DNA from: an uncultured Halomicronema sp.
Lineage (GTDB): Bacteria; Cyanobacteriota; Cyanobacteriia; Phormidesmidales; Phormidesmidaceae
Length of the DNA: 64,000 nt
Direction of reading: 5' to 3'
Assembly: GCA_937899725.1 (NCBI GenBank)
Contig: CALCCA010000041.1
Coordinates: forward strand, 1 to 64,000
Shown here: positions 9,268 to 39,134 of the stretch, one piece after another
How the letters are laid out: each line of letters begins with the position of its first letter
Numbering within the stretch: the first letter of the stretch is position 1
Notes under the pieces: model-generated
The model's database searches: none
What the model was told of the DNA's origin: nothing
Seen by the model: the letters and a program-made list of their open reading frames with translations, nothing else
Program-made: the position numbers and the translations under genes

Positions 9268-10875
9268 ATGACGATTAGATTTTGGCCAAACCGACGGTTG
9301 AAATATGGGGCGTTGCTATTAGTCGCCCTGATGCTGCAATGGCTGCTGATAGCCTTGCCGGGGTTGAGCACCGAGCGTCTGTTCGTCAATTTTGGGGCCG
9401 TGGAGTACTCCGTGTCCGTGGCCAATTTAGAGACCTTTGCCCGCACCGGTGAACTGCCCTACGAACTCAGAAGTTTGGGGCGGTTTCTCTCAGCGGAACA
9501 GCTTGAGCAGCTGCGTAACGGGCTCACGGTGAGCGCCGATATCGATGTCGTGACCGTCTCGCAGTTCTTGTACTCTGCCCAGGGCGAGGCCACCTTACGG
9601 CTGTTAGGGGAACTGGTGCAAACGGCCGCGCGACAAAATGGCGCGTTGGCCATTCGCGCGGCCTTGATTTTGGCGGCAGCAGACGGTGAGGGCCAATTCA
9701 ACGCGCTCAACATTCTTAACCATTTCCCAACTCAGGGCGCTCGGGTTGATTTACAGCGACTCTCCACCGTGGCGCGAACGGTGATTACCGAGTTGAACGA
9801 GACCGAAGCGGCCGTGACGCAGATTCAGCAGCAGGCAGCGCTGGATCTGGCCAGCGCTGGCGAGACGGGCACTACCGCTGTGAGCCTACTGCAACCCGGG
9901 CCAGAGCGCTGGCAGATGCAGTCGCTCGATCAGCTAACGTTACCCACTGATTTGTATCTGCCCGCTGGGCAAAATGCGCCGTTGATCGTCATCTCTCACG
10001 GGTTGGGGGGCAATCGCACCACCTTTGCCTACCTGGCTGAACATTTAGCCTCCTATGGGTTTGCCGTAGCCGTGGTCGAGCACCCTGGCAGCAGTGCCGC
10101 GCAGCTGGAGGCACTGCTCACCGGCGAAGCAGATAACGTGATTGAGCCCGAAGAAATGATGCGCCGCCCGCTCGCGATTCAGACGCTCTTAGATGAATTA
10201 GCCACCGTGGCGCAAGCGCCGACCATTGGCGAGCACGTCAATCTTCAGCAGGTGGGTGTTTTAGGGCAGTCGCTCGGGGGCTACACGACCTTGGCCTTAG
10301 CCGGAGCGACCGTCCAAAGCACCGCTTTAGAACCGGTGTGTCCGGTCCGGACTTCGAGCCCGCTGAATTTGTCGCTGCTGTTGCAGTGCGCGGTGCTAGA
10401 GCTACCGCCGCCACTACCGCCACTAGCGGATCAGCGCATTCAGGCGGCGATCGCCATCAATCCGCTCGATAGTGCGGTGTTTGGCTCAGTGGGCATGGCC
10501 AATATCGCCGTGCCCACAATGGTCGTCTCCGGCAGTGCCGATACGGTGACGCCCGCCTTGGCAGAGCAGATTCGCCCCTTTACCTGGCTTGAGTCGGCGG
10601 AGCGCTATCTCTTAATGATGGAAAATGGCACTCACTTTTCGACCATTTATGAGCCGGATCCCAGTGCCGCCGCCATCCCCGTACCGGCCCAGATCATCGG
10701 CCCTGCCCCCGAGGCGGCGCAGCGCTACATCAAGGCAATGAGCGTGGCCTTCTTCAAGACCTATTTGGCCAGGGAAGATACCTACCGCGCCTATTTGCAT
10801 CAAGCGGCGGTGCAACCGCTGAGCAACCCGGCTCTGCCGCTTTCTCTAGTCCAGGAATTCACGCTTGAGAACTAA
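9268..10875 (+). CDS. DUF1400 alpha/beta hydrolase
   Basis: A secreted or membrane-anchored hydrolase of 535 residues. It has an N-terminal hydrophobic segment (LLLVALMLQWLLIALPGL), then the cyanobacterial DUF1400 block (ERLFVNFGAVEYSVSV...), then an alpha/beta-hydrolase domain with the oxyanion loop VISHGLGG, the nucleophile elbow GQSLGG (Ser near residue 335) and a late Asp/His pair (SGSADTVTP, GTHFS). The substrate is unknown; relatives are annotated as lipase- or dienelactone-hydrolase-like. ATG 9226 is an alternative start. A paralogue lies at 43428-45134. It converges with the flotillin gene, with nine bases between stop codons. Confidence 0.9.
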   Translation: MTIRFWPNRRLKYGALLLVALMLQWLLIALPGLSTERLFVNFGAVEYSVSVANLETFARTGELPYELRSLGRFLSAEQLEQLRNGLTVSADIDVVTVSQFLYSAQGEATLRLLGELVQTAARQNGALAIRAALILAAADGEGQFNALNILNHFPTQGARVDLQRLSTVARTVITELNETEAAVTQIQQQAALDLASAGETGTTAVSLLQPGPERWQMQSLDQLTLPTDLYLPAGQNAPLIVISHGLGGNRTTFAYLAEHLASYGFAVAVVEHPGSSAAQLEALLTGEADNVIEPEEMMRRPLAIQTLLDELATVAQAPTIGEHVNLQQVGVLGQSLGGYTTLALAGATVQSTALEPVCPVRTSSPLNLSLLLQCAVLELPPPLPPLADQRIQAAIAINPLDSAVFGSVGMANIAVPTMVVSGSADTVTPALAEQIRPFTWLESAERYLLMMENGTHFSTIYEPDPSAAAIPVPAQIIGPAPEAAQRYIKAMSVAFFKTYLAREDTYRAYLHQAAVQPLSNPALPLSLVQEFTLEN

Positions 10876-10884
10876 TTCAGGGAA

Positions 10885-12834
10885 TTAGCTGTCGGACGCT
10901 ATCGGCGCAGCCAGGACATCGGTGGGCGGCGAGTCCGATGACGACACTGGGGTCGGTGACTCATCGGCTTGAATCAAATCTTTTACCTGGGCCAGCACCG
11001 TGCCCAATTTGCCGTCTTCTAACAGACTGTTGATCAGAGCCAGGCCACTGGTCGAAAGCAGCAGTTTGTTGATGTCGCCCGCGCCGTTGCCATTGCCGTT
11101 GCCGTCACCTGCACCGTTCGCGCCGGGAAACGCATAGATGCGCGCATCGCCAATGACACCGGGTTGGGGGGCCAAGGCGCGCAGCACTTCGGGCAGGCGA
11201 TCGGCCAGTTCGGGCCAGATTTGGGCGATCACATCAGCAGTCAGGTTGGCGCTGCTGATGGCGTTGCGGGCTTCGATGTTGGCCTGACGCCCTTCGGCTT
11301 CGGCCAGAGCTTTGTCTAACTCTGCTTGGGCCAGGGTACGAATCGCCTCGGCCTCTAGCTCCGCTGTTTGTTTAGCAATTTCCGCCTGACGGCGTTTGCG
11401 AAACACGTCAATCTCAACCACGTTTTGGTCAGCGATGCGGCGCTCGGCGGCATCTTGTTCGGCAGCGATGACGGCCAGCCGCTGCGATCGCTCTGCCTGC
11501 TCAACCGACGTGGCGGTTTGCACCCCGGCTTCGGCTTGAGCCCGGGCAGCCTCAGCGGCAAAGCGCGAGCTTTCGCGCTCAGCGATCGCGATCGCCGCTT
11601 CCTCTTGGGCCACTTTGGACTCGCGCTCAGCCTCAGCCAAATCAACCAGGGCCATAAATTGCGCCGAGTCCACCGCTTTTTGCCGATTGACTTCGGCCAC
11701 ATCGGCTTCTTCGCGCTGCCGGGCCTGGGCGACTTTCAAAACCTTCTGCCGTTCTTCTAGCTCAATGTCGGCATCAATTTGTTTTTGCCGCACGCTGAGC
11801 TGCCGCTGAATTTCTTCCTCTTCAACCGATTGCTCCTGCAGGATTTTGGTGCGCTGAGCAGTGGCGGTTTCACGATCGCGCTTCTCTTGAATAGTGCGCT
11901 CACGTTCCGCCTTGAGGGATTCGATTTCGAGGGTTTGGGCCAGTTTGGCATCTTCTTGATCTTTGGTGATATCAAGCGATCGCTTCTCGGCATCAAGTTC
12001 TTTTTGTTCGATCGCCACGCGCGTGGTCAGCTCGACCTCCCGCTTCTGTTGGATCGAGCGCTGAATCGTTTCCGTCCGTAGGCGCACCCCCTGCGCGTCG
12101 AAAAAGTTGTTGGTGTCGTAGGTATCACTCTCTTCAATTTCCGAAATCGCCAGGTTGTTGAGGGTCAAGCCCACCTTCTTCAGATCGGGCTCAATCAGGT
12201 TCAGCACCTCTTGGGCAAACCCCAGCTTGTCAGAATCGGTTTCGGCCAGGGTTTTAGTTTTGGCGGCAGCGCGAATGCCGTCGTCAGCCCGCTTTTCCAG
12301 CGCATTTTTGATGTCTTCGGGGGTGATTTGACCATCTCGCGACAGTCGTGCCGCCGCTGTCAACACATCATCTTCCGAGGCATTGATGCACACATAAAAG
12401 GTCACCCGCATGTCGGCCCGCAGATAGTCTTGGGTGCGCACCGCCAGCTTGCCCGTGCGCTCGACGTCGATCGAGAGTTCACGCAGGGGCACCCGCGTCA
12501 ACTCATGGAAACCGGGCAGCACCACACAGCCACCATTGAGAATCACCTTTTTTTGCTTGCGCACGATACCGCCAGTGCGGACAAAGGCTTCGTTAGTGGG
12601 GGTAATGACGTAGACCCGGGTGTAGGCCCAAATCGCCACTAGCAGCAAGACGACAAACGTCACTACGCTGCCCGAGGCGAGCACGCCCAAGCCCCCCAAC
12701 TGCCCCACTGTGGGCGCGGGCAGCAACGGAGTTTCTGCTGACACAGCCACTGTTTCACGAGTTTCCAGCGCTGCTGGCTCCTCCAGCGAGGGCAGCGGGG
12801 GCAATGATTGAATTAAGGTCAGCCAATAGAACAT
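10885..12834 (-). CDS. Flotillin-like SPFH/band 7 protein
   Basis: About 649 residues. One membrane segment near the N-terminus (VVTFVVLLLVAIWAYTRVYVI) is followed by an SPFH domain (EAFVRTGG...VILNGGCVVLPGFHELTRVPL), then a very long Glu/Ala/Arg/Gln-rich coiled coil and a Gly/Asn-rich tail. This is the layout of flotillins, which scaffold membrane microdomains. ATG 12834 has GGAG six bases upstream; the longer frame to 12924 would add residues unlike the family. The upstream gene is a YqiJ-like protein, the usual partner of bacterial flotillins; 62 bases separate them, so they form an operon. Confidence 0.92.
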   Translation of the reverse strand: MFYWLTLIQSLPPLPSLEEPAALETRETVAVSAETPLLPAPTVGQLGGLGVLASGSVVTFVVLLLVAIWAYTRVYVITPTNEAFVRTGGIVRKQKKVILNGGCVVLPGFHELTRVPLRELSIDVERTGKLAVRTQDYLRADMRVTFYVCINASEDDVLTAAARLSRDGQITPEDIKNALEKRADDGIRAAAKTKTLAETDSDKLGFAQEVLNLIEPDLKKVGLTLNNLAISEIEESDTYDTNNFFDAQGVRLRTETIQRSIQQKREVELTTRVAIEQKELDAEKRSLDITKDQEDAKLAQTLEIESLKAERERTIQEKRDRETATAQRTKILQEQSVEEEEIQRQLSVRQKQIDADIELEERQKVLKVAQARQREEADVAEVNRQKAVDSAQFMALVDLAEAERESKVAQEEAAIAIAERESSRFAAEAARAQAEAGVQTATSVEQAERSQRLAVIAAEQDAAERRIADQNVVEIDVFRKRRQAEIAKQTAELEAEAIRTLAQAELDKALAEAEGRQANIEARNAISSANLTADVIAQIWPELADRLPEVLRALAPQPGVIGDARIYAFPGANGAGDGNGNGNGAGDINKLLLSTSGLALINSLLEDGKLGTVLAQVKDLIQADESPTPVSSSDSPPTDVLAAPIASDS

Positions 12835-12896
12835 ACGCGTCTCCAAAAAATGACTCTTCAGTCTCCATCCCTGACTGGCCTCAAGCTTGATCAGCT

Positions 12897-13640
12897 TCAG
12901 GCCAGCTGGTCGCCGCTCAGCCAACGCTGCTGATCGATGCTATTTTGAGCAATCACTAAGTAGTGGCCCTCCGTCCGCTCGATTACCAGCACCTTCGCGC
13001 CCCGCCGCAGCGTGATATTTGCCCAGTCGGGCAGTTTGGCACTGATGGTAACGAGGTTGGCAGCGGCATCTTTGACATCTACCTGGCCGATTTTGCCCGA
13101 CTCTTCAAAGGGCACAAAGGCCGAGGTAACGGTGCCTAAACAGCCCACCAGGCGATCGCTGCTGGCATCTTCGCCAAAGGCGGCAAAGATTTTGCCGATG
13201 GGGCGCGATAGCCAACCACCGACCACCAACGCAAAGACCAACGAGAGGAAAAAGACGACGACCGCTAACCCACCAGTGGGCGATTGCTCCAGCCCGTCGG
13301 CGATCGCGACATTCAGCACCCAACCGGCAAAGCCCCATAGGGTAAAGTCCATCGCTAGCAGCAGCACCAGCGGCGTCCGCCCCAGACCAAACCAGGCCAA
13401 CATCTGCAGCGCCCCCAAGCTACTGCCCTCGCTGCCCGCATCAGCCTCGGCATCAAAATCGACCAGCGTCTCTGCGTTGAGCGCAAAGTCGGCGTCGATA
13501 TCAGCATCAATATCCAGATCAGCATCGGCGTCAACGTCGAGATCATCGTCGCCACCGCCCGACAAAATCACAAACATGAACAGAACGATGCCTGCACCTA
13601 GCAAGATCCAGTAAGGCAGGTTAACGAGACTAAACACCAT
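12897..13640 (-). CDS. YqiJ-like OB-fold membrane protein, flotillin partner
   Basis: A 247-residue protein. It has an N-terminal membrane helix, an Asp-rich low-complexity loop (residues about 30-55, alternating Asp with Val, Ala, Leu or Ile), two or three further helices, and a C-terminal OB-like beta domain (GCLGTVTSAFVPFEESGKIGQV...). This is the YqiJ/DUF1449 layout found next to flotillin genes, related to NfeD. It probably binds the SPFH protein encoded just downstream. The acidic loop is on the non-cytoplasmic side if the first helix is a standard anchor, and could bind cations. Confidence 0.85.
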   Translation of the reverse strand: MVFSLVNLPYWILLGAGIVLFMFVILSGGGDDDLDVDADADLDIDADIDADFALNAETLVDFDAEADAGSEGSSLGALQMLAWFGLGRTPLVLLLAMDFTLWGFAGWVLNVAIADGLEQSPTGGLAVVVFFLSLVFALVVGGWLSRPIGKIFAAFGEDASSDRLVGCLGTVTSAFVPFEESGKIGQVDVKDAAANLVTISAKLPDWANITLRRGAKVLVIERTEGHYLVIAQNSIDQQRWLSGDQLA

Positions 13641-13677
13641 TTCGTTGAGCTATCAATACCGATAACACCTGTGTCAC

Positions 13678-13860
13678 CGTCACATAAATCGTTAGGCTCG
13701 GGGACTCGGTTATTTCAGACCAGACCACCGCGATCACGGCCAATCACGCCCAAGATAGCTGTCTTATCCACCCAAGCGCTGACAATAGAAAGCATTTGTA
13801 ACTCAAACCTCTGGCTGCTTAGTGTCACGCTGCGAATCGTGTTCCCCCATGGTTGTTGGC
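13678..13860. repeat. Dispersed ~180-bp repeat, copy A
   Basis: Closely related to 46358-46531: both start CACATAAA, share CCAATCACGCCCAAGA, AGCATTTGTA and CTCAAACCTCTGGC, and end GTTGTTGGC. The inner 122-123 bases align without large gaps. Read on the minus strand both copies keep an open stretch with QRFELQMLSI and LGVIG, which may point to an old gene piece. Confidence 0.7.
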
Positions 13861-13912
13861 GTCTACTGAAGAGGAGAGTTGCGATCGCCCTCTACTGATA
13901 AGCCTGGTGACG

Positions 13913-14118
13913 ATGAGCCGAAGAGGATGTTTGATAATTGGACTGTTGACCGCGATCATCCTGTTTATTCCGCCTGCGATCGCCATTTATCGAGCCACTT
14001 TGATCAGGGTGCCGACGGCAAAAGGACAGGTCATCGCAAGCGTCGTTTGGGCGGTGTTGGCACACATCATCATGGTCGAGTTGCCCATTGGGTTGAGTTG
14101 ATTTCTGGACGGTATTGA
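13913..14118 (+). pseudogene. HXXEE-family gene remnant (3' part)
   Basis: The translation includes LLTAIILFIPPAIAIYRATL and KGQVIASVVWAVLAHIIMV, clearly similar to residues about 172-225 of the intact HXXEE protein at 39135 (LLTAVVIFLPLAIAFYRTVL, KVQVIASIAWAILAHLIMV). After HIIMV the similarity continues in another frame (VAHWVELISGRY versus AANWFELIPETAY), so there is a frameshift near 14075. The N-terminal two thirds, including the HXXEE motif, are absent. Confidence 0.75.
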
Positions 14119-14185
14119 TGTGAGACACAAAAAAATGAGTAACTCAGGCTACCCCTTAATTCCAGAATTCAGTTCATCTCGAAAT

Positions 14186-15227
14186 GGCTCAATCTGCGTT
14201 TTAAGGAGCTAGGCCAAGATAGTCTCTAACAGATTACCAAGCAAGGCTTTGCCTCGCCTTCGTGCGTTGTGCATAAACTTGAAGAAGCCGAGGTAGAGTG
14301 GCCGCTTCTCTTGAGAAATGCCTCGATGAGGACGCAACCCAGAGCGTCGCAGAGACCAAAAGCCTGCCATCGTGTTGACATGAACTGCGCAAAAACCGTC
14401 ACCATCTTCAGCACGGACATACTCGCCAGCACTATGACAAACGGTTTTGTGACCATAATCCCCAGCTTCAAGCGGTGCGTCAATGACGGACTCGTCGGTG
14501 TTGACCAAGGTGCCGGGAGCAATCGTGGCCTTGATAATGGGGTCAATCGTCTTCTGTTGTACGTTCTCTAGAAGGCGAATCACCACTTCTCCACTACGCT
14601 GAATCATCCCAAAGACCGGTGGCTTTTCCGTCGTCAGGGTACCGCCGTCCCGAAGCCCTTTGAGCTTCCGCCGCCGTCCCTCCCGCCCTTTTTTGGCACG
14701 GCTTCGGGATGTCCTTTGTGGCCCGCCGTCACGGACACCTCATCGCACTCAACCGTGCTGGAAAGCTGAACCTCTGGTTTCTGGTTGACCATGACTTGAC
14801 GCAACTGCGTCGTCAGGGCGTGAACAGCATCTTTGTGCAAGTCCAGCTCTGGGGCAATTTGCTGATTTGAAAGATTCGGCCCCATCAGAGACAGACACCC
14901 AATCCAGACTCGCAACGGTTGATGTCGTCCCATAAACACCGTGCCGGTCAACTCATCAAACTGCTGCTCACAGCTTTTACAAACGTCGCGTTGGCGATGG
15001 GGATGCTTGTCATCTCTGCCGCGCTTGATCACTCTTGCCGTCTTGCCGTGGGGACACTCGACCGTGCCGTCAGGCCCACGCAAACGGCGTACACTTTCGT
15101 AGCCTTTAGCTTCTTCCAGCCGATGTGTCAGGCTTAGCATCGACAGGGAGCGCTCATCTCATGCGGGATTCTAGCAACGCAGCTCGTCCTAGCCCTCACA
15201 CTAACTCCGCAAAACAGCTATTGAGCC
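14186..15227 (-). mobile_element. IS1595-family insertion sequence with 8-bp target duplication
   Basis: Both ends start GGCTCAAT and continue with matching GTTTT, GGAG and TAG positions (about 20 of 27 bases identical). The element is flanked on both sides by CTCGAAAT (14178-14185 and 15228-15235), a perfect 8-bp target duplication, the length typical of IS1595. Total length is about 1042 bp. The transposase inside is frameshifted and has a catalytic-site change. Confidence 0.88.
14209..15140 (-). pseudogene. IS1595-family (ISXO2-like) transposase, split by a -1 frameshift
   Basis: The first frame (15140 down to about 14690) has an N-terminal zinc-ribbon region with one cysteine lost (CPHG...CKSC) and the first catalytic Asp in VECDEVSVTAGHKG. 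The rest, including the second Asp (NTDESVIDAP) and the C-terminal PHRGISQEKRPLYLGFF, is in the -1 frame. The shift falls on A AAA AAG (14694-14688), phased as a standard -1 slippery heptamer; slippage there yields one continuous protein. Against activity, the motif normally reading NTIEGFW reads NTMAGFW, so the catalytic Glu is Ala. Probably a dying copy; programmed frameshifting in intact relatives is possible. Confidence 0.85.
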
Positions 15228-15374
15228 CTCGAAATTAAGCAACACCTCTTCCTTTATGAGTGCATCCCACTTTTGTTTTCTAGTCCTACTCGCGGGCAAG
15301 ATGCCCGCCCTAGAAGCATTGATGGATTTACAAATTGGGAATGTGCCCCTTCTCTACTCTCTACTCTCTACTCT

Positions 15375-16430
15375 CTATGCTTTATCTCCCCATGTTTGTT
15401 TTCGATATTCTTTAGGAGATCGGCCTGTCCAACGTTTGAACGCTCGACGAAAGGCCCGCGCGTCTGTGTATCCAACAATTTCCCCCACGGTGGTGATGTC
15501 GATTTCCGGATCGCCTAAAAAGCTTTTAGCATTCGCTAAACGGATTTCATCAATGAGAGCATTGAGCGACGTCCCGTGCTGCTTGGCCAAACGCTGCGCT
15601 GTACGGAGACTGATGTTAGCTTTGGCGGCCGCTGCCGCTGCGCCATACTCGCCCTGGGTTGCGTTTTCCATGATGCCCCGACGCAGCTCTGCCAGGGCAA
15701 TGGGATAGCGATCGCTCTTCAATTGCTGGCGCAGCTCCGCAAAATGGCGTTCGACAAACCTGAACATTTGCGGATTGGCATCGCGAGCCGGTGCACTGAG
15801 ACTCTCTCGTGAGAAAACCAGCGCATTGCGGCCTGACTGAAAGGAAACGGGTGCTTGAAAAAACGACTCGTAGGCTTCTATCGGTACAGGTTTGGCGATC
15901 GCAAACTCGACCCGTAGCAGCGATATTTCTACATCGGTGCTCTCTTGCAACAGTCGCCAAATTAAACCCGTAGCAGCTTCCAGCAATATCCCCTGATCTT
16001 GACTCTCACAAGGATGGGCAACCACCATCGCCACCTCTGACTCCACTTGCTCAAGCTGCACTGCCGACTGGTCGGCAATAATCGTTTGATTGGTCAAAAA
16101 CCACCCCAGCATGGCTTCAATGTCATGGGCAAATTGAGCCCCTTGGGCTAAGCCACCGAGCATCGTAAACGGAGCAGAACGGGCAATTTCCATCGAAATC
16201 GCGGTATCCGGCCACTGCTTAGCAATGACGCTCATCAGATTTCCCACCGCGTCATCCGAGATGCGGCTATCGAGGCGGGCATAGTCGACTGCCGAGAGGT
16301 CGGTGACTTGGGCGATCGCTGTCAGCGACATGCCGTGAGAGACAGCAAAGTCAAGCATCGTGGTGACAATACTGCCCAGAGTCTCTGGCTTGACGAAATT
16401 GGCATTAATAGTTCCTTTTTCGGCGTCCAT
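15375..16430 (-). CDS. AraC family regulator (Arabinose_bd-type sensor domain), paralogue 1
   Basis: A 351-residue protein. An N-terminal sensor domain of about 200 residues of the OruR/ArgR-like class (DAVGNLMSVIAKQWPDTAISMEIA...) is joined to a C-terminal AraC double helix-turn-helix (AAAAKANISLRTAQRLAKQHGTSLNALI...VGEIVGYTDARAFRRAFKRWTGRSPKEYR). It is full length. Paralogue 3 at 19543 is very similar, paralogue 2 at 17633 is ruined and paralogue 4 near 21059 is a fragment. Such regulators usually control a neighbouring oxidoreductase; the SDR gene at 18505 is the nearest candidate. Confidence 0.93.
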   Translation of the reverse strand: MDAEKGTINANFVKPETLGSIVTTMLDFAVSHGMSLTAIAQVTDLSAVDYARLDSRISDDAVGNLMSVIAKQWPDTAISMEIARSAPFTMLGGLAQGAQFAHDIEAMLGWFLTNQTIIADQSAVQLEQVESEVAMVVAHPCESQDQGILLEAATGLIWRLLQESTDVEISLLRVEFAIAKPVPIEAYESFFQAPVSFQSGRNALVFSRESLSAPARDANPQMFRFVERHFAELRQQLKSDRYPIALAELRRGIMENATQGEYGAAAAAAKANISLRTAQRLAKQHGTSLNALIDEIRLANAKSFLGDPEIDITTVGEIVGYTDARAFRRAFKRWTGRSPKEYRKQTWGDKA

Positions 16431-16561
16431 GACCCTTCTATCTCAATAATTCTGCTGAGAGGATTAAGCACAAATATAAGCCTCGAAGCGCAAAAGCGCA
16501 GGATTCATAGCCATTTGATTACTCACGATGCACTCGGAAGAGGCGCTAGGAAATTAATTTC

Positions 16562-17632
16562 GGGCACTGTCAGCTTAGAGAGTGAGAGCTAGAGTGTAGA
16601 CGTAGCCAGCATTTAAGTCCAATGCCTTGTATCCATTGCCAGAGTCCAGCCATCGTCAAGAATGGCACCAAACCCCTCAAGACGGGTCAAGTGCTCCAAC
16701 AGTATCTCTGCAAGACCTGTGGTCGCCGCTTCAATGAACGCAGCGGCACTCCCATGAGCCGCCTGCGAACGCCCGTCACCACAGTAGAGATGGCCCTCAA
16801 CGCCAGACATGAGGGGCTGGGCATCAGAGCCGTCGCAAGAGTAGTCGGTAAATCACCCAGCCGTATCACCACTTGGGAAGAGCGCTTATCGAGTCACCTG
16901 CCGTCCTGGTCTCCAACCGCTCCTGAAGGAGGAACGGTGACGATAGAAGGCGATGAACTCTACACCCGAGTTGGTGAGAACCTTCCCCCCCGCCGCGTCT
17001 GAAGGGATGGACCATCCGCTTCATTGAACGGCAAAGTCGCGACTGGATAGAAGCCAGTGCCGGACTCAAGGAGGCTCAGTTGTTTGAGCAAGGCGTTCAA
17101 AGCGCTTGGCAGTGGACAGAACCCAGTGATGGAGTCCGGTGGTTTACGGATGGTGAGCGGCGCTACGGCCAGGAGTTGTAGAAATTGGCTAGTGGCTATC
17201 TGCCCAGCCGCCTCACCACAGAAGCTGATCCTGATCGAAAGGTCTGGCGCGAGGGTTTAGAAGTCGCGATGAGAATCAAGGGGTCTCAGGGAAATCGACG
17301 GGTTGAGTGGCTCCATCAAGAACATCCTTTGACAGCGATGAGTCCTAAGCCAGAGGTCCAGGCCAATCATGTTGAGGCATTCAACAGTGCCTTGAGACGT
17401 CGGACAACCGCTGATCGCAGGCGTCAGAGTCACGATGCCAAGCAGGTCAAGGGCTTGCAGCGAGCTTTGAATGTACAGCGACTAATCCACAACTGGGTGA
17501 GGCCCCATTGGGGCTTGGGTAAAACGCAGACACCTGCCATGGCGATGGGATTCATTAAAAGGCCCGTAAAGATCTCTGAAATACTCCTGTCCACAGGATT
17601 TGAGTGCTTCACCCCTTAACAGGACAGTGCCC
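16562..17632 (+). mobile_element. IS1-like insertion sequence, degenerate
   Basis: Terminal inverted repeats begin GGGCACTGTC at both ends (16562 inward, 17632 inward) and stay similar for about 25 bases. No target duplication is visible. The right end interrupts the AraC paralogue 2 reading frame, but the missing 3' part of that gene is not on the left side, so a deletion next to the element is implied. Confidence 0.78.
16622..17619 (+). pseudogene. IS1-family-like transposase, broken
   Basis: The first frame gives a zinc-binding N-terminus (CIHCQSPAIVKNGTKP...CKTCGRRF) and a helix-turn-helix up to LPPRRV, then stops at 17000. The protein continues in the -1 frame from the seven-C run at 16985-16991 (GWTIRFIERQSRDWIEAS...), meets an in-frame TAG at 17179-17181 where Trp is expected, and runs on to the C-terminal HNWVRPHWGLGKTQTPAMAMGF. 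So it has two lesions, a one-base loss in a C-run and an amber codon. I assign IS1-like from the zinc ribbon plus the C-terminal NHVEAFNSALRR; the exact group is unsure. Confidence 0.75.
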
Positions 17633-18384
17633 CGACGCCGCAGTGCAAGCGCTACTGGATAATTATCGTCATTTAACTTTTGACGAAGTTTGACAAAATG
17701 CTGCTTAATCAGCTCGAACATCTGGGGATTTGCGGAACTAACAGGTCGGCAAAGGATATCTAGTGAAAAAACAAGTGCATTGCAACCTGCCTGGAATGAG
17801 ATAGGTGATTGAAAGAACTCCTTATAAGGGCTCAGCTGAACTGCTTTCTTGTTAGCAAACTCTACACTTTTTAGAGGTGCCTCTGGCACAGTAATCGTAT
17901 TCAAAAATCGCCACAGTATCCCCATCTTTGCTTCCATGGTGTAACCATTGTCCATGAACTCGCAGGGGTGAGCAAAAATCAATGCACCCTCTAAAGCTGT
18001 TTTCTCAAGATGTACAGTCAACTGGTCTACAAGGATGGCGGTATTTTCGACAAACCAGTTGAGTACTGCCTCAAAGTCGGTCGAAAATTGAGCGCCGTGG
18101 ATTAATCCCCCCAGCATTGAAAATGGCGCACATTGTTCGATTTCCATAGAGATTGCTTGCTCTGAAAACTTCTTGTCAAGCACGTTCATCAGTTTCCCAA
18201 CGACAGGATTAGGAAGCAGAATATCTTGATTGGCACAGTCAAGTGCTGCAATATCAATAGCCTGAGCCATCTCATCGAACGTTATCCCTTGAGATATGGC
18301 ATGGAAAATCATAATGTTGGCGAGGCTCCCCAGGGTTTCGGGATGCGAAAAATTGGCATGAATGGTTCATTTTTTGGCATTCAT
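17633..18384 (-). pseudogene. AraC family regulator paralogue 2, ruined
   Basis: From ATG 18384 the frame reads MNAKK then TGA (18369-18367) where the paralogues have Gly/Glu, and continues in frame as TIHANFSHPETLGSLANIMIF and the full sensor domain, ending at LALRRRG where the IS1-like element begins. The whole C-terminal DNA-binding domain is missing. Reinitiation at ATG 18312 would give only a sensor domain fused to transposon-derived codons. It lies divergent to the SDR gene at 18505, so it was probably that gene's regulator. Confidence 0.85.
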
Positions 18385-18504
18385 AGACCTCCCAGTTTCA
18401 TGGCTTTGCTGCAAAGATTACTCAAAAGCTTTTTAGGATTTTGTTGACTATCTTCTATTGAAATCTGAATCCTATTACCTTAAACACAGCATTCGTTTCA
18501 AGTG

Positions 18505-19275
18505 ATGTCCATATCGAGTCAAACGAGCAGAATGATAAACTCAAAAAAAACGGCGGTATTGACTGGTTCCACTGGCGGTATTGGGTTAGAAATTTCCAAA
18601 ATCCTCGCAAAGCAAGGATGGAACCTTGCGCTGGTCAATCGGTCTCAAGAGAAAACTAATTTCCAACTCGAAGAACTCCACAAATCGCATCCTAGCCAGG
18701 AATTTACAGGATTTATCGCTAACTTAATGGATGCATCAGATATTAATCGAGTCGCTGCAGAAATTAGATCTGAGTACACAGAAATCTCAGCCTTGTACAA
18801 TATTGCAGGACTTCTGACAGATAAACGAATCATGAGCCCTCAAAATATCGAGGGACACTTTGCGCTAAATACGCTGGCGCCATATGCTTTGACTCAGCTA
18901 CTGCGCAACCAGCTAGGTGCAGGAGTAAGGAATATCCAGCAGACAGTGATTGTCAATTTTTCATCGAGCGCTATCAACGCTGTAAAAGAAATAGATGTAA
19001 GAAACCTAACGAATCCAGAAAGCATCGGTGGCTTGATGGGAGCATATGCAACGTCGAAGACAGCGCTTACTGCCGTTAGTGCCTTGATGAAAGAGGAGTT
19101 ATTAAAAGATGGAATTTTGATCCAAGTCGTCGATCCGGGTCCAACAAAAACTTCAATGACTGGCTCAAGCGATGGAATGCCCTGGTACCTGCTTTTGCTT
19201 CGCCCTTTGCTGTTTAAGCCGGCCAAACTCCAGGCTCAGAGGCTGATTAGTGCTGTCGAATCAGCAGTCAGTTAG
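18505..19275 (+). CDS. Short-chain dehydrogenase/reductase
   Basis: About 256 residues, Rossmann fold. It has the cofactor motif GSTGGIG near the N-terminus, an NIAG-type motif (YNIAGLL), the catalytic Ser in NFSSSAI, and YATSKTAL for the catalytic Tyr and Lys. The N-R after beta strand 2 (LVNRSQEK) suggests NADP(H). GTG 18502 directly precedes ATG 18505. It is divergently placed from the ruined AraC paralogue 2 and faces the intact paralogue 3 on its other side; either may regulate it. The substrate is unknown. Confidence 0.9.
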   Translation: MSISSQTSRMINSKKTAVLTGSTGGIGLEISKILAKQGWNLALVNRSQEKTNFQLEELHKSHPSQEFTGFIANLMDASDINRVAAEIRSEYTEISALYNIAGLLTDKRIMSPQNIEGHFALNTLAPYALTQLLRNQLGAGVRNIQQTVIVNFSSSAINAVKEIDVRNLTNPESIGGLMGAYATSKTALTAVSALMKEELLKDGILIQVVDPGPTKTSMTGSSDGMPWYLLLLRPLLFKPAKLQAQRLISAVESAVS

Positions 19276-19542
19276 GGGAAATCAGGACTCTTTATTTCAG
19301 AAGGTCAACAAAAATCCTATCCTCCAATCACTTTGAACAAAGATATTCAAACTGAAATTAAATCGTTGCTTGACACCCAAATACAGTGAGTTCTTCTACG
19401 AAACCATAGTGGCAGTCTGGTGACCGAAGTCAGGCTAACATAATATAGGAGCGGATGGAATTTAAGATCTAGATGTTGATGCAAAAATACTGGCTGCCAC
19501 TCAGCTCTAACGTTAGCTATCCGATTCTCTATAAACAGAACA

Positions 19543-20592
19543 TCACTCTTTAAAGAGTTCGTTTTTATACTCTTTTGGAGACAATCCAGTCCAACGCTTG
19601 AACGCTCTACGGAATGAGCTAACATCGGCGTATCCAAGAAGCTGGGCTACCCTTGAAAGACTAATCTCGGGGTTGTTTAAAAATTTCTTTGCATTGATCA
19701 GACGAATTTCATCGATGAGTTTCTGCAAAGACGTCCCATGTTGCTTAGCCAAACGTTGTGCTGTGCGAAGACTGAGGTTTGCTGCTGCTGCAGCCGCTGC
19801 TACCTCATACTCACCGTGGGCAGCATTATCCATAATGCTCCGACGCAGCGGGGCGAGTGCTGCTGGATAATTATTTTCAATTAACTTTTGACGAAGTTCG
19901 ACAAAATGCGGCTTAATCAGATCGAACATCTGAGGATTGGCGTAACGAACAGGTCGACAGAAGATGTCTAGTGGAAAAACAAGTGCATTGCGACCTGCCT
20001 GGAATAAGACAGGTGCTTTAAAGAACTCCTCATAAGGGCGTAGCTTAACTGCTTTATTGTTAGCAAACTCTACTCTTTGTAGAGATGCTTTTGGAACAGT
20101 AATCGTATTCAGAAATCGCCACAGTACCCCCATCGTTGCTTCCATGGTGTAACCGTTGTCCACAAACTCACAGGGGTGGGCAAAAACCAATGCACCCTCT
20201 GAAGCTGTTTTCTCAAGGTGTACAGCCGACTGGTCTGCAATAATGGAAGTATTTTCGACAAACCAGTTGAGTGCTGCCTCAAAGTCGGTCGCAAACAGAG
20301 CACCTTGAACCAGACCGCCAAACATTGAAAACGGAGCACAGTGAGCAATCTCCATGGAAACTGCTCGATCTGGAAATTTATCGGCAAGCACCGTCATTAA
20401 TTCCCCAATAAAAAGATCGGGGAGCCGAGCATTCTGATTGGCATAGTCAAGTTCTGAAATATCTATGACTTGAGCAATTTCATCCAGTGATAGCCCTTGT
20501 GATACAGCGTAGGAGATGACTGTTGTTGATAAACTCCCAAGTGATTCTGGCCTAACAAAATCGACATCAATAGTCTCTTTTCTAGCATCCAT
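19543..20592 (-). CDS. AraC family regulator, paralogue 3
   Basis: A 350-residue protein with the same layout as paralogue 1: sensor domain, then AraC helix-turn-helix pair (AAAAAANLSLRTAQRLAKQHGTSLQKLI...VAQLLGYADVSSFRRAFKRWTGLSPKEYK). Paralogue 2 is closer to this copy than to paralogue 1 (shared WRFLNTITVP and HPCEF-NGYTMEA), so 2 and 3 are the younger duplicates. ATG 20592 has GGAGGAGG eight bases upstream, better than ATG 20622. It converges on the SDR gene. Confidence 0.93.
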   Translation of the reverse strand: MDARKETIDVDFVRPESLGSLSTTVISYAVSQGLSLDEIAQVIDISELDYANQNARLPDLFIGELMTVLADKFPDRAVSMEIAHCAPFSMFGGLVQGALFATDFEAALNWFVENTSIIADQSAVHLEKTASEGALVFAHPCEFVDNGYTMEATMGVLWRFLNTITVPKASLQRVEFANNKAVKLRPYEEFFKAPVLFQAGRNALVFPLDIFCRPVRYANPQMFDLIKPHFVELRQKLIENNYPAALAPLRRSIMDNAAHGEYEVAAAAAAANLSLRTAQRLAKQHGTSLQKLIDEIRLINAKKFLNNPEISLSRVAQLLGYADVSSFRRAFKRWTGLSPKEYKNELFKE

Positions 20593-21058
20593 AGGCCTCC
20601 TCCTTTTCTGTTCTGAGTGCAAAAGTAGAATTGTGATATCAGGAATTCAAAATCAAGCTGCATCTCCACAACTTTCATTCAATTGATGATAATTAATTAT
20701 TAAATTTTAATTAGAGAATATTAGGATATCCTTAAAGGCTGATGAAAAAATCATATGTTGGGAGAGCTTTATGTCTTCTGACATTGTGATGGAAATCTAA
20801 CTCACGCCCTTAGTATTTGAAGGTCATAGAAGAATTTATACGCCATTTTCTATGAAAGCAAGCAGCGACTTCACTCGGTATTAACGGTTTCATCAGTGAC
20901 AATATTGGCGCCGTTGCTGTGCTGGGTGGTTATGCAGCTTATTAATATTCGTGGATTGTCTCATCCGCTCTCACCTGGTCTTCGGCTTTCTGGACCTGGA
21001 TCTCCCTAACCGCGATGGTACTGACTCATGGGAACTGTTCTATAAGTCCCTTGCTCAG
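20593..21058. other. AT-rich gap
   Basis: No gene seen. The sequence is AT-rich next to the paralogue 3 promoter, with no recognisable coding remnant until 21059. Confidence 0.45.
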
Positions 21059-21217
21059 CTACCCAACAATAGGCTCAGGGAATTGAACACAATAGGCTTG
21101 AGAGATTTCGTCGCATGTGATTTCTGGCGATATGGCATTAGCGATCGTAGTTGCTGATACCCTTCTCAATGTCTCAGGGTTAAAAATGGCATAAATGCTC
21201 CCTTTTTTGGCGTTTAT
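21059..21217 (-). pseudogene. AraC family regulator paralogue 4, N-terminal remnant
   Basis: Read on the minus strand from 21217: ATA (in place of ATG), then NAKKGSIYAIFNPETLRRV and CDEISQAY, matching the starts of paralogues 1-3 (MDAEKGTINANFVKPETLG and so on). The frame ends at TAG near 21059. The start codon is lost and everything after about 50 codons is gone. It shows that this regulator family was once at least four copies in about 6 kb. Confidence 0.7.
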
Positions 21218-21590
21218 GGTTCCCCTAGTTTCGTGTGCTTAGTGCAAAATTAGACGCAACAGAAAACAAGATTCACAATTAATGCCCTCATAGTTAGTAG
21301 CAACAAAGGAATTCATTCTTCAATTTGTTGAATAACTCAGAAGAAGGATCTGAAATGTTTTTAGAGACACGTATGTTAAGAGATTTTCGCAATGCCTGCT
21401 CTTCTAAATTGGCACACAATGCCCTGATTAATTCACGTCATAATCCTTTTTGAAAAATTGTTGCAGGGTACACAAAATTCAGATATCGAACCAATGCAAA
21501 GAAGGGCCGCTGTACGGGACCAAGCTTCTCTGATAGCACAACATTCCAGGGCGGCGACTTAATACACGTCAACCCCTCAATGAGGACATC

Positions 21591-22181
21591 ATGCCCCTTA
21601 AAGCACTCAGACTAATAGTCGTAACATTGCTGACGCTCACGTTACTCGTGGGTGGTGCAAAAGCGCAACAAACAGACCCCTTCGCGGCGCCCACACGCGC
21701 CTGGGAACAGGGTGCGATCTATCAAAACACCATCCCAACAGATTTTGAGACCCATATCATCGTGAATAACGACGCTGACCGCGCCAGGGCAGAGAAGATT
21801 ATCGAGCTCTACCGACTGTTCGAAACCAATCCTACGGACGAAACTCTCCGTGAATTCATCTCCGATCGCTATATCCAGCACAGTGTCATGTTGCCCAACG
21901 GACGGCAACCGCTGGCCGAGTTGTTTGGTGGATCAGTCGAGGAGTATCCGGTCGCGATTGACATTCACAAAGTGATCGTGGTGGGCGATTGGGCCATGGC
22001 GCACGTCAATTTCCGGAATTTGGACAACGACAGCCCCGAGGATAAGGGGATGGCTGCTGTCGACATGTATCTTTTCGATTCCGACGGCAAGGTCGCCGAG
22101 CATTGGGATTCCCTACAACTTGTGCCGAGCCATTCTCCAAATCCAAATGGCATGTTCCTGACACTCTTTGAAGGAGAATGA
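21591..22181 (+). CDS. Secreted SnoaL/NTF2-like protein
   Basis: A 196-residue protein with a clear signal peptide (LRLIVVTLLTLTLLVGGAKA|QQ). The mature part looks like a SnoaL-type NTF2 fold: IIELYRLFETNPTDETLREFISDRYIQHSVMLPNGRQPLAELF, then VIVVGDWAMAHVNF and VDMYLFDSDGKVAEHWD. Such folds act as small cyclases, isomerases or binding proteins. The stop is four bases before the start of the AhpD-like gene, so the two secreted proteins share an operon and probably a pathway. Confidence 0.82.
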   Translation: MPLKALRLIVVTLLTLTLLVGGAKAQQTDPFAAPTRAWEQGAIYQNTIPTDFETHIIVNNDADRARAEKIIELYRLFETNPTDETLREFISDRYIQHSVMLPNGRQPLAELFGGSVEEYPVAIDIHKVIVVGDWAMAHVNFRNLDNDSPEDKGMAAVDMYLFDSDGKVAEHWDSLQLVPSHSPNPNGMFLTLFEGE

Positions 22182-22185
22182 CCCG

Positions 22186-24090
22186 ATGAAACTCAAAACA
22201 CTTGTAGCGAGCACTGCTGCACTCATCACCACCATTCTGCTGCCGGCGCAGACCCTTGCAGAAACCCCCCCGGCGCCAGCAGCAGACCAGGAGACCCCCT
22301 TCTACGATCGCCACAAGATCGACATCAGCAACCTGTTTGATTTCTACGAGGGTCTGTTGATCTCAGACGCGATGATCCATGCAGACGCGATGTTTGATGC
22401 TGAAACCAAGTGGCGGCTGACTCTGCGCCAGATGGTTCTCGCAGGCAGCGGCCACCATACCGCACGTAGCGCCTACCAGCTCTCATTGATGGGTGTGCCC
22501 TTGGCAGAGATCCACGCAATTTTCGCACCCGATTACGTGGAGACTTTAGAGAATCCGCGCCTGGAGGCCGCGTTCACCTATATCGACGTGATGGGCAGCT
22601 ATCCGATCACGTCCTCTGCCGATATCCATGCGCTCCTGCGCACCCATTACCCAGATCGGCAAATTGCCGAGCTGATGCAGCTCGGGGCGATCAATAACGC
22701 TATGGCCACCCATGATGCCGTGTTGCCGATCGCGACCGATCAGGAAACCCTCGATTGGGCCATTGAAAATCTGTCTGCGGTAGGTTGGGAGCCCGGCCAC
22801 AACGCCGCCACCTCGCCTGAAGAACAGCGCACCAACCCCTTCGTCGGCAATGCTCTGATGCAAGCGGTGGCAGAGATTGATGCCGCTTGGGTCCGCGATG
22901 ATTTGGGCGCGGTTGATCCGGTCTTTGAGACGGATTGGGTCAATTACATCACCGGGTATGATATCCCCATCCTCACCTTCGACGGCGATCAAGACGGCAT
23001 TGAGGAGCCTTTTGACGCCTTCCCAGCCACGCTTCTTGAATGGGAAGCACCGGGGTTGCGCGAGGCCAACCTGCCGGCGGCAGGCACACCGCCCTTTAAT
23101 GTGGCCGCCTATGACTATGACTTTTATGACGGTCCCCAGGGTACCGAGGCGAGCGTGCCCTATAGCGATCGGAGTCAGTTTGACACCTACTGGGCCCGGC
23201 AAGCGGCGTTCGGCACCTTGACCATGGACGAATACATCTTGCAAACTGAGCGCACGATGGAATTCGCCGAGATCTGGTCGATGTTTTTCGTCTATCAGCT
23301 CGCCAGTGGCTGCGTTCATTGCCAGGCCCATGGTGCCTTTGGCATTTATGACTACACGGAAGCCGATTACTTCCAATCCGAGATCCCGCCAGAAGATCTG
23401 CCAGAACTGATTGCATACATCCAATCCCTGATGGATTTTGAACGGTCCGAGTTCGTCGAGCCAGCGCAGAGGGCGGCTCTGCGGCTCGCGCGCGATGCTG
23501 GTCGTCTGCCAACGCGGGTGACGGCGGCCCACATCGAGGAGCTGCGTCGGCACTTCACCGACCGGGAAATCCAAGAGATCCTGGCGATTCCGGTGGTCAC
23601 GGCTTGGCTCTCTGGCAGCATGCAGTCGATGGCAGTAGTGACCGATCAGCTCAGCATGAGCTGGATGCTGCGCCATCTCGGCCCTATGGGCTGGACGCCT
23701 GGTGTGCACCTCGGTTTGCCCAACGAGCAGCGGCCCCACCATATGACCCAGCTTTTCGATTTGCTGGTGGCTGACATGAACTCAGGCAAAGTGCCAGACG
23801 CTGCGACGGAGTGGACCGGTCTGCCGGTGCCTTTGGCCGTGGATGCCGACGGCGATGGTGTGGAGGATGCCTTTGATGGCTTCCCCAACGACCCAAGCCG
23901 TTGGGCAGATACCGATCGCGATGGCATCGAAGACTCGTCAGACGATGACATTGACGGTGATGGCATTGCTAACACCGAAGAAGTCTCTTTGGGGATTTTT
24001 CCCTACAAGGCCGATTCGGATGGTGATGGCATTGACGATCCAACCGAGCTTAATGCCGGAACTGACCCTGTCGATCCTCGCAGTCTTTAA
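22186..24090 (+). CDS. Secreted AhpD-like protein with two peroxidase-type domains and calcium-binding repeats
   Basis: About 634 residues with a signal peptide (STAALITTILLPAQTLA). It looks like a tandem duplication: a helical carboxymuconolactone-decarboxylase/AhpD-like domain then a short DGDQDGIEEPFDAFP motif, then a second such domain followed by several thrombospondin type-3-like repeats (DADGDGVEDAFDGFPND, DTDRDGIEDSSDDDIDGDGI, DSDGDGIDDPTELNAGTDP). Only one CxxC is present, CVHCQAH near residue 382, the motif used in AhpD catalysis. AhpD enzymes are normally short and cytoplasmic, so a secreted, calcium-repeat form is unusual. ATG 22186 has GAAGGAG upstream. Function unknown; peroxide or organic radical detoxification outside the membrane is possible. 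Confidence 0.78.
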   Translation: MKLKTLVASTAALITTILLPAQTLAETPPAPAADQETPFYDRHKIDISNLFDFYEGLLISDAMIHADAMFDAETKWRLTLRQMVLAGSGHHTARSAYQLSLMGVPLAEIHAIFAPDYVETLENPRLEAAFTYIDVMGSYPITSSADIHALLRTHYPDRQIAELMQLGAINNAMATHDAVLPIATDQETLDWAIENLSAVGWEPGHNAATSPEEQRTNPFVGNALMQAVAEIDAAWVRDDLGAVDPVFETDWVNYITGYDIPILTFDGDQDGIEEPFDAFPATLLEWEAPGLREANLPAAGTPPFNVAAYDYDFYDGPQGTEASVPYSDRSQFDTYWARQAAFGTLTMDEYILQTERTMEFAEIWSMFFVYQLASGCVHCQAHGAFGIYDYTEADYFQSEIPPEDLPELIAYIQSLMDFERSEFVEPAQRAALRLARDAGRLPTRVTAAHIEELRRHFTDREIQEILAIPVVTAWLSGSMQSMAVVTDQLSMSWMLRHLGPMGWTPGVHLGLPNEQRPHHMTQLFDLLVADMNSGKVPDAATEWTGLPVPLAVDADGDGVEDAFDGFPNDPSRWADTDRDGIEDSSDDDIDGDGIANTEEVSLGIFPYKADSDGDGIDDPTELNAGTDPVDPRSL

Positions 24091-24392
24091 TTCTCGCCAT
24101 TAATGCTAGGGGCTGTCATCATTTAGAGCCTGAATCCTGATGCTGCTAGCGGTTCAGCCCCTAGCTGGGTTTCTGGGGCAGGCGCGGTAATGCCTATACC
24201 GCAAGGCTTTCGAGATTAATTGATGACGCGCCCTAGGACACTGATTCAGGCTATCTTGTTCAGCCCATACCAAAATGGCGTCGCCGCCTTGCCCTAAACG
24301 GATCTGGCGGCGGCGATCGATTCAACTGCGCAAATCCTGACGGGTTAACCAGCGCAGATCAACTCTGCAAGACGTGTAGGTAATTGTGTGTG

Positions 24393-25751
24393 ATGAAGCT
24401 TCCTCTACTTTTGGTGTGTATTGCAATTTTCCTCAGAACATTGCCGGTACTGGCGCAGACAGAAGCCGATGGTGCCCATGACACTGCCGAAACGCCGCGT
24501 GAGAGCAATGCTCTTTGTGCTCCATTGGAGACTTACCTTACCGACGGGGGGGCGATAGACGCGGAAATTCAGGGGGAGATTGTTCCCTCGACAACAGCCG
24601 ATTGCGATCGCCAGGAGCCGCTGGCGCAGACAGAAATTGATGGTGCCCATGACAATGCGGAAGCGACTCGCACTGAGAGCGATGCTGATGCTCTTTTTGT
24701 CGAAGCGTCTCCGACACTGGCGCAGGAAGAAGTTACAAATGCCGAAACTTATCCACGTATCGGCGGGGATGTTCTTTTTCGCTTTGCCTATGATGGGGAC
24801 TATGACGCCGAAGCGCCACGCACTGAGAGCAATGATCTGTTTTTCGAAATGATTGCTTCGCCTGAATTTCAGTTTACAGAGAGGTTTTCACTAAACGCCG
24901 AAATTCGACTAGAGAACGCTAGTCCGCCAACGGCAGATCGCTATTTCGAAGATCAAACACTCTTTGTTCGCAAATTGTTTGTGAACTATGACGTGAACGA
25001 CCGCCTGTCCCTACAGGCAGGCAAACTTACTCCGACATTTGCCTTTGCGTCCTTGGTCACGCCGGGCATGTACGGCAACAGTTACAATCGAGAAATCGAG
25101 CTAATCGAACGCATTGGCTTTGAGGCTCAATATACTTTCGATGCCGGAACGTCTGGGCAGCACACACTTAGCGCTAGTACCTTCTTCGACGATACCAGTT
25201 TTCTGTCCGACTCCCTTGACTTAGGCGGACGGCGGGGTCGGAATCGCTTGTCCGACGGCGGCGCCAGCAACACTGAGTCATTTGAATCTTTTACAGTTGC
25301 GCTTGAAGGTAGCGAAATCAGTCGGCTACCTGGCTTCACCTACCGGCTCGCCTATATCCACGAAGCAGCAGGTGAGGGGGACGTGGCTGATGAAAACGGT
25401 TTTTTGGTCGCGGCCATGCAATCGTTTCAGTTGGGTGACGGACAATCGCTGACCTTGATTGGTGAAATTGCCCCTCTATGGAACTTTGAAGGCACCGCCG
25501 ACAATATCATTTATGCCAGTGCCGGGGTGGTCTACCAGACTGACCCGTGGACCATGACCCTTTCCGGCACCGGTAGATGGAGAGATCTCGCAAGCGGGGA
25601 TACCTTTGACGATTATTCTGTGCAAACAGCGGTTGGATACGATCTGGGTCGTGGCACTACAGTCGAATTAGCCCACGAGTTCAGTCGCGCTCAGAACGTG
25701 AATAGCCAGCAAATTGGCTTCCGATTTAGCCAGGTGTTGGATTTGGATTGA
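24393..25751 (+). CDS. Outer-membrane beta-barrel (porin-like) protein
   Basis: About 452 residues: a signal peptide (LLLVCIAIFLRTLPVLA), then a region of about 110 residues with degenerate repeats (AQTEADGAHDTAE, AQTEIDGAHDNAE, DGDYDAEAPRTESN), then alternating amphipathic beta strands to the C-terminus (RFSLNAEIRLENA, RLSLQAGKLTPTFAF, FRFSQVLDLD). The terminal aromatic/hydrophobic pattern and the LQAGKLTPTF stretch are typical of porins. Solute unknown. The N-terminal repeats are visible at DNA level, so they arose by recent duplication. It follows two secreted proteins on the same strand but after a 300-base gap. Confidence 0.78.
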   Translation: MKLPLLLVCIAIFLRTLPVLAQTEADGAHDTAETPRESNALCAPLETYLTDGGAIDAEIQGEIVPSTTADCDRQEPLAQTEIDGAHDNAEATRTESDADALFVEASPTLAQEEVTNAETYPRIGGDVLFRFAYDGDYDAEAPRTESNDLFFEMIASPEFQFTERFSLNAEIRLENASPPTADRYFEDQTLFVRKLFVNYDVNDRLSLQAGKLTPTFAFASLVTPGMYGNSYNREIELIERIGFEAQYTFDAGTSGQHTLSASTFFDDTSFLSDSLDLGGRRGRNRLSDGGASNTESFESFTVALEGSEISRLPGFTYRLAYIHEAAGEGDVADENGFLVAAMQSFQLGDGQSLTLIGEIAPLWNFEGTADNIIYASAGVVYQTDPWTMTLSGTGRWRDLASGDTFDDYSVQTAVGYDLGRGTTVELAHEFSRAQNVNSQQIGFRFSQVLDLD

Positions 25752-26380
25752 AACTGTCAGGTCTGCGTCAAGGGACGTAGCCGCTTTAGGATGTCTGAGT
25801 CGCCGATCGCCCAGCATATTACTCGTCCCGTCCATCATTAATGTGAGGCCCGCGATCGCACGATGGCTGTGACATAACGGCGGCCTGAGGTGAGGCCCAA
25901 CCAGGCATGTTTGCGTCTCATCGATGCATTTCAATGAGAGGCGCGATCGCGGCCAGATTGCATCGCCTACGGCGGCAAGGCTGAGGCCGCACCATGAGTC
26001 TCATTGAAGCGGTAGCCCACCTTGGACACAGGACTGATGAGCCTAAGGCGCTGGGCTTCTAGGCGGAGCTTTTTGCAAATCGCGCGTAGATTTCGATTGT
26101 TGTGATCTTCCCCTCCAAAAACCCAACAACCTAGCGATTGAGTTAAGCGGCGATGACAGTCGTTCGCACTTCAGGTATCTGCATAGATTTGCCGAGCCAA
26201 CGAAGTGTTAGCTTGTATTTTATATTTTGACAATATAAGTAGAAAGCCTGGATTGATTGTCAGGTAGGGATTTCAGATCTGGATTCGTACCTCATCTGAC
26301 AGGGAAACGCTGTATGAGCTGGTCGTATCCATAGACTATTCGCGAATAGCATTAGCGTTGTTAAGAGCCTAAACAGTTAC
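25752..26380. other. Gene-free gap
   Basis: No supported gene in about 630 bases. The open frames are short and without domains. GCGATCGC-rich palindromic sequence lies around 25840-25965. Confidence 0.5.
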
Positions 26381-27235
26381 TTATATACCTAACTTTAAGT
26401 GCATGAAATAGTTTTGCCAGCTTTGATGCTCTCGCCCTGCGGCAGCTAAAAAATCACTCGGATTATCCGCCTTACCGGCTCGAATGCCTTCATAAATTCC
26501 AGCAATCACAGTGCCCATGAATTCGCCCAACTCGGCTATCCGCTCGCTCCGATAGTCGTCTACGGTCATAGCGCGATAGATCAGGTGAGTACTAAAGGCT
26601 AAATTCAAATACTCGGCCAGTTCACCTTGAGTAATCGTTTCACCATTTAAGTTATAGGTTTTGCCATTATGCTTATCTTCCGTCAACATTCGGGCATAGG
26701 CATAGGCGAGCTCTGGCCGAGTTGTATAACCACATTTACCTTCACCAGCGCAGTTCGCAATCTCCCCGGCTTTTTGGTAGGTGGCGATATATTCCACATC
26801 AGGCTCAATATAGATACCATTGCGACCAATCACCCATTTCAACCCACTATTGCGAACATCTTGTTCGGTTTGGCGATTGCTTTGAATAACCGGACTAAAT
26901 GTTGTTCCGGCTTCAGCACCCTGAACACTGGTGTAAACAATTTTAGTGACGCCTGCGGCTTTAGCCGCTGCAATGACATGGCGATGTTGACCGATGCGTT
27001 GATCTGGAGCATCCATACCAGATACCAGCAATACTGTATCTATCCCCTGCAGCGAAGCTTCTAACGCTTCTTGATTGTTGTAATCGCCCTGACGCAACTC
27101 CACCCCAAGATGGGCCGCTTTAGTCGGCGTCCGTGCCAGGCCAATAACGTTTTCTGGGCCGATGATCAAGCCTGTGGCTTTAACAATTTCGCTGCCTAAT
27201 TTTCCACTGGCAGCTGTGATGGCAATCTTGACCAT
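26381..27235 (-). CDS. NmrA-like NAD(P)-binding protein (atypical SDR)
   Basis: A 284-residue protein with the N-terminal motif AITAASGKLGSEIV and conserved TVLLVSGMD, KIVYTSVQGAE and NGIYIEP stretches, as in the quinone-oxidoreductase-2/NmrA group of atypical short-chain dehydrogenases. These bind NADP(H) to sense redox state or reduce quinones. It is the last gene of a minus-strand series (SIP, SDR, NmrA) that may form a loosely spaced operon. Confidence 0.9.
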   Translation of the reverse strand: MVKIAITAASGKLGSEIVKATGLIIGPENVIGLARTPTKAAHLGVELRQGDYNNQEALEASLQGIDTVLLVSGMDAPDQRIGQHRHVIAAAKAAGVTKIVYTSVQGAEAGTTFSPVIQSNRQTEQDVRNSGLKWVIGRNGIYIEPDVEYIATYQKAGEIANCAGEGKCGYTTRPELAYAYARMLTEDKHNGKTYNLNGETITQGELAEYLNLAFSTHLIYRAMTVDDYRSERIAELGEFMGTVIAGIYEGIRAGKADNPSDFLAAAGREHQSWQNYFMHLKLGI

Positions 27236-27315
27236 AAGTTCGTCTTTGTATCCGTGGAGTGTTAAAAGTTTCTGAGGGCAATCTCCCCAGATCTAGGGCT
27301 TTAGAAAAAGAGTTG

Positions 27316-39130: not shown

Positions 39131-39134
39131 CCCG

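Follow-up and report, generated by a model that had tools for sequence, protein, structure and literature searches.

AraC family proteins control transcription in response to a bound effector. Among the described ones, GliR (PA3027) of Pseudomonas aeruginosa is of the AraC type and activates a divergent operon (PMC8151288). In the LuxR family, the HTH-less homolog CerN antagonises CerM and has been shown to be functional (PMC11655674). Here we analyse a cyanobacterial locus where four AraC genes of one subfamily lie on the same strand within positions 15375–21217 of the window, that is, the whole stretch of 64,000 nucleotides. Two of them, A and D, are intact and the other two, C and E, are broken.

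The intact copies come near to the described regulators without joining them. The top NCBIfam model for both is QhpR (NF049968), nearly the whole profile of which is matched, but A scores 122.5 and D 145.7 against a cut-off of 250, so they are not QhpR equivalogs. GliR is the second-best model, at 106.4 for A and 103.6 for D against a cut-off of 570, and its target genes differ too. Both copies are also far below the curated NCBIfam cut-off for the CypR equivalog. Judging by the family and by the divergent gene order, the likely role of A and D is to respond to a small molecule and switch on the operon opposite them, in the manner of GliR.

Our main reading, which we give a probability of about 0.7, is that old AraC copies would have been gathered, recombined and lost beside an exchanged operon, combining birth-and-death with gene conversion and horizontal exchange. 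This is an already known kind of event. Among the literature matches listed, none deals with this locus or with gene conversion in cyanobacterial AraC arrays.

Results

Anatomy of the locus

The features are as follows, by coordinates in the window and strand.

15375–16430, minus strand: AraC copy A, intact, 351 aa, PF12625 sensor and HTH_18
about 16567–17631, plus strand: IS1-family element, its transposase split into ORFs of 126 and 144 aa; abuts C
17632–18384, minus strand: AraC copy C, reduced to the sensor domain and with a TGA at codon 6; no homology beyond codon 251
18502–19275, plus strand: SDR gene, divergent from C, with an in-frame TAG
19543–20592, minus strand: AraC copy D, intact, 349 aa, PF12625 sensor and AraC HTH
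20751–20773, plus strand: short remnant of an alpha/beta-hydrolase start facing D, 21 of 23 bases as in L028 2993–3015
21029–21217, minus strand: AraC remnant E, whose translation has stops and an internal gap and whose start position reads ATA
21218–21498, plus strand: E-type intergenic and promoter region, holding the first codons of a lost facing hydrolase
21591–25751, plus strand: operon of a SnoaL-like, a 640-aa and a porin-like protein

The initial annotation had described four related genes in 6 kb with two intact copies, at 15375 and 19543, and this anatomy stands. The PF12625 sensor domain (Arabinose_bd) is above its cut-off in A (8.9e-20), D (7.1e-18) and C (2.6e-13), and the C-terminal AraC HTH is above cut-off in A and D and without a match in C. 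D starts at ATG 20592; the listed TTG at 20622 adds 10 aa. A and D are 59% identical with a dS of about 3. Against their relatives, A has a dS of 0.49 and a dN/dS of 0.12 (A_G005, in G005) and D a dN/dS of 0.18 (D_G002, in G002). With such a divergence and such low dN/dS, A and D look maintained and old. In the first HTH, the stretch LSLRTAQRLAKQHGTSL of D differs from A by one residue, and by this near-identity A and D may bind related operators.

The cluster is not a chance gathering. The own genome holds 21 matches to D at E≤1e-3 but only three, D, A and C, are strong, and the other 18 are at E 1.7e-7 or weaker, 17 of them in the HTH part only. No plasmid match to D was found at E≤1e-30. 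Two viral-contig stretches matched the pattern of A and neither was confirmed. The scan of the genome contigs confirmed 2 of 30 candidates, the Heron Island J copy and a distant HTH match.

E was recovered by tblastn with the G019 protein, residues 1–74 of which lie at 21217–21029 (42% identity, E 8e-10), and the C-terminal HTH part is absent. As had been proposed, what is left of it is N-terminal, and the start codon is replaced by ATA. Its intergenic region is resembled by that of the intact G019 copy. The hydrolase gene of about 1.2 kb that comes next in G002 is missing from the window after 21218–21498. The shorter remnant facing D has an E of 1e-4 against L028 and is matched at 19 of 21 bases by L029 11518–11538 (E 0.004). 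Between the D promoter and E, 20774–21028 gives no useful match in the nine sources compared, namely the window itself and eight loci.

In G019 one intact copy faces an intact alpha/beta-hydrolase, and short remnants of the start of this hydrolase lie opposite both D and E in the window and opposite the E of G002. Taken together, the duplicated unit probably comprised the regulator, its promoter and the hydrolase start.

The SDR gene is followed after its TAG by 37 codons that are like the G006 and G002 SDRs and open to the next stop. In the operon, the SnoaL-like protein has Pfam scores just under the cut-offs, the 640-aa protein weakly resembles carboxymuconolactone-decarboxylase-type structures and a TSP3 repeat, and the porin-like protein has a weak match. 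Between the genes of the latter two lies a dispersed repeat of ~130 bases (24106–24240), which accounts for 23 of the 43 G002 matches of window 8500–28400. A second one (15252–15348; 6 of the 43) overlaps the area just downstream of A, and further downstream 14209–15140 is a degraded IS1595-like transposase with a weak NCBIfam match (39.3 bits, cut-off 75). No structured RNA was matched at the Rfam gathering score in 13000–26000.

Mosaic copies

The likeness of C to D is uneven along the gene, 61–73% before about codon 80 and 85–89% after codon 97 up to 251, and that of C to G019 is steady at 68–75%. We counted the sites where a copy is like one of two others, leaving out alignment gaps and positions at which the copy under test agreed with neither. 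C is like D and not G019 at 17 of 52 informative sites to codon 97 and at 93 of 110 beyond. A break as strong was never reached in 2000 shuffles and only twice in 2000 at third positions, and it probably falls at codon 67–100 (65–101 at third positions).

D has a break of its own. It is like D_G002 and not G019 at 132 of 172 sites and then at 21 of 68 (0/2000 at both all sites and third positions), with the change at codon 240–262 (third positions 202–277). D_G002 itself breaks against A and D, from 25/265 to 30/77 at codon 251–257 (0/2000), so the recombinant may be either D or D_G002. No break was found in the controls, that is, for A and A_G005 against D and G019 (1815/2000 and 1350/2000) and for D against G019 and A (146/2000).

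Silent divergence follows the same tracts, with dS falling from 1.26 to 0.28 for C and D, and running 0.28, 0.33 and then 1.48 for D and D_G002. The phylogeny that the initial annotation had proposed as a check, built tract by tract, agrees in part: the middle tract groups C with D and D_G002 (100/99), but in the 5′ tract D joins D_G002 (98/99) with C taking no firm place, and the HTH tract likewise forms no resolved groups. What marks gene conversion is an abrupt switch of the nearest relative, silent sites included, and this is what we find. None of the six sequences and two remnants was identified as a donor of the recombinant tracts. On these comparisons, C and D (or D_G002) are recombinant.

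An alternative is that already-diverged paralogs were joined by horizontal transfer without exchange and that the breaks reflect uneven constraint. Conservation is higher in the HTH than in the sensor, and G019 against A_G005 and D has a break near codon 25–33 on all sites (1/2000) that vanishes at third positions (179/2000), so uneven constraint can mimic a break. A similar break is seen with A (0/1000), and there are weaker ones for D_G002 (17/1000) and G019 (5/1000), which also speak against too simple a reading. The breaks of C and D, however, stay at third positions and in dS, and this alternative is unlikely.

Relatives and the probably exchanged operon

The D search covered 95 genomes, own included, with 11 matching at E≤1e-20, and the A search 63 genomes of the order, with 6 matching at 1e-40. 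The subfamily members found are the six sequences and two remnants. Relatives with four intact and distant copies, which would speak for another history, are not seen among them; G005 and G019 have one copy each and G002 has one copy and one remnant.

G005, of the same genus, has its single copy, 89% identical to A, directly facing the SnoaL operon. After it, the order of window 21720–25763 and parts of 33226–45124 is kept. At the DNA level, A is 88% alike and the operon 66–79%, with 84–88% at 33436–34161 and 40120–42611 and 74% at 42611–45124. The left flank is not syntenic in G005, where the flotillin-like gene is 0.66 Mb away. The flotillin-like protein is 98% identical to that of G002 and 85–86% to those of G003–G005, and the search found none in G006, G019 and G042.

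G002, also of the same genus, has in order the SDR (58%), D (82%), the E remnant, the alpha/beta-hydrolase and the first SnoaL bases at the contig end. Its assembly is fragmentary: the contig in question is 4.4 kb long and breaks off within the SnoaL gene, and no 634-aa operon protein was found in this genome. The DNA is 90–94% alike in the left flank, 83% in D, 77% in the E region and 69% over 242 bases in the SDR. The E of G002 still has its ATG, carries a frameshift and can be matched only as far as residue 34 or so, which makes its lesions unlike those of the window E.

The 634-aa operon protein has matches in 3 of 388 sampled genomes of the class, own included. It is 94% identical to G006, of another genus, but 63% to G005, of the same genus. 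As yardsticks, the RtcB identities are 90% for G005 and 72% for G006, and G001–G004 gave no match; MATE is 76% identical to G006, and G005 has it broken into two parts (86% and 66%) and bearing a stop. A block of the E-type promoter, the alpha/beta-hydrolase and the SnoaL operon is common to G000, G002 and G006, although G000 and G006 have lost the hydrolase or have it broken. Ahead of SnoaL in G006, three stretches resemble the G002 block, one of 162 bases at 97.5%, one of 124 at 86% and one of 69 at 93%.

The G002 hydrolase is missing from the window between the points matching L028 3059 and 4271 and is matched only in pieces in G006. These breakpoints differ, so the losses would be at least partly separate. 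D itself may have been inherited vertically, since its 75% identity to G019 equals the family yardstick.

The locus had been seen as a hotspot around the SDR gene. The feature that recurs in the relatives is instead the SnoaL-like operon, and the SDR itself is truncated. By these alignments, the shared anchor of the loci is the SnoaL operon, not the SDR.

It had also been seen as amplification plus rapid loss. Several copies and their decay are indeed there, but a rapid tempo is not supported. The silent sites between A and D are saturated, the close relative of A is present in G005, an E remnant with different lesions is present in G002, and the transposase beside C is already split. A recent local tandem amplification, then rapid decay, would suit the copies lying on one strand in 6 kb and the high likeness of C and D from about codon 97 to 251. 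This likeness is limited to one stretch, however, and other genomes contain relatives of A and of D as well as an E remnant. We consider this explanation improbable and reject recent tandem duplication on dS and the relatives elsewhere.

Fate of copy C

C was described as having TGA at codon 6 and an IS in place of its DNA-binding half. Our comparison confirms the stop and the missing HTH half, and the IS abuts the break. The IS has a second copy, 82% alike, elsewhere in its own genome. The IS1/IS1595 zinc-binding N-terminus is matched (NF050000, 36.9 bits against a cut-off of 28) but the full IS1 transposase model is not reached, the first ORF having 48.5 bits against a cut-off of 100 and the frame being split. 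No detached HTH half of C turned up in the window by loose tblastn with the family; the sole other HTH match by this search is a separate AraC-type gene at 30061–30945. That gene is matched in the HTH alone (27% to G042 residues 268–343).

IS1-family elements duplicate 8–9 bp of their target. Inspection of both IS ends by eye shows no such duplication, so the HTH half of C was more likely lost by a deletion beside the IS than by a plain insertion.

C is probably dead. Its residual ORF (17482–18312, 276 aa) runs into the IS and holds the PF12625 domain entirely, so C might be alive if this ORF from ATG 18312 yielded a sensor-only product able to disturb A or D by forming heterodimers with them. 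C is, as CerN is, a sensor-only paralog of a DNA-binding regulator, and G006 has one sensor-only copy and one split before the HTH. CerN, however, belongs to the LuxR and C to the AraC family. Over codons about 83–251, dN/dS is 0.42 for C and D versus 0.24 for D and D_G002. The preserved frame is uninformative because at most one stop arises in 45% of the neutral simulation runs, and no well-placed Shine-Dalgarno is seen by eye. A living C is thus improbable.

Alone among the lesions, the single stops in C and the SDR could be recent. That they are sequencing errors, as the 216-contig draft and one stop each in otherwise open frames might suggest, is the least probable of these alternatives, and single-base errors cannot make the HTH loss of C or the lesions of E.

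Discussion

The history that we favour, gathering, recombination and loss beside an exchanged operon, would start with old PF12625-type regulators, each at first divergent from an enzyme gene. The original partners would be the SnoaL operon for A, the SDR for C and the alpha/beta-hydrolase for D and E. A would be the resident copy, and the rest would have arrived with, or been swapped within, a block of the SDR, D, E, the hydrolase and the SnoaL operon that moved from genus to genus within one cyanobacterial family. The C and D mosaics would then stem from recombination among the copies. What was lost later would be the HTH half of C, next to the IS1-like element, together with the end of the SDR, the hydrolase and the greater part of E.

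G006 has a parallel array. The same SnoaL operon is faced there by four PF12625 AraC copies, which belong to a separate subfamily with about 24–33% identity to the window copies. Copy a has the sensor domain only, ending near 235–250. Copy d is about 9 kb from the other three and split near 240, with its HTH half beyond an insertion that has a transposase-like ORF, named by eye. This resembles the window in having one copy without the HTH and one split by insertion.

Four breaks fall in or by the linker between sensor and HTH (residues 215–267), namely C at codon 251, D/D_G002 and the G006 copies a and d, in a list drawn up after the data were seen. It is a doubtful but conceivable extension that the linker is a recurrent break site, where regulators swap or shed their DNA-binding halves and leave stand-alone sensors that tune the surviving copies.

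The locus shows in compact form how a small regulator family is put together, reshuffled and pared down in nature next to a horizontally exchanged operon, and a second genus offers a parallel. A further lesson is that paralogs at one locus are not recent duplicates by default, so that relatives and silent-site divergence should be checked. If the sensor-only copies are made as proteins, they would provide a testable route to new regulatory proteins.
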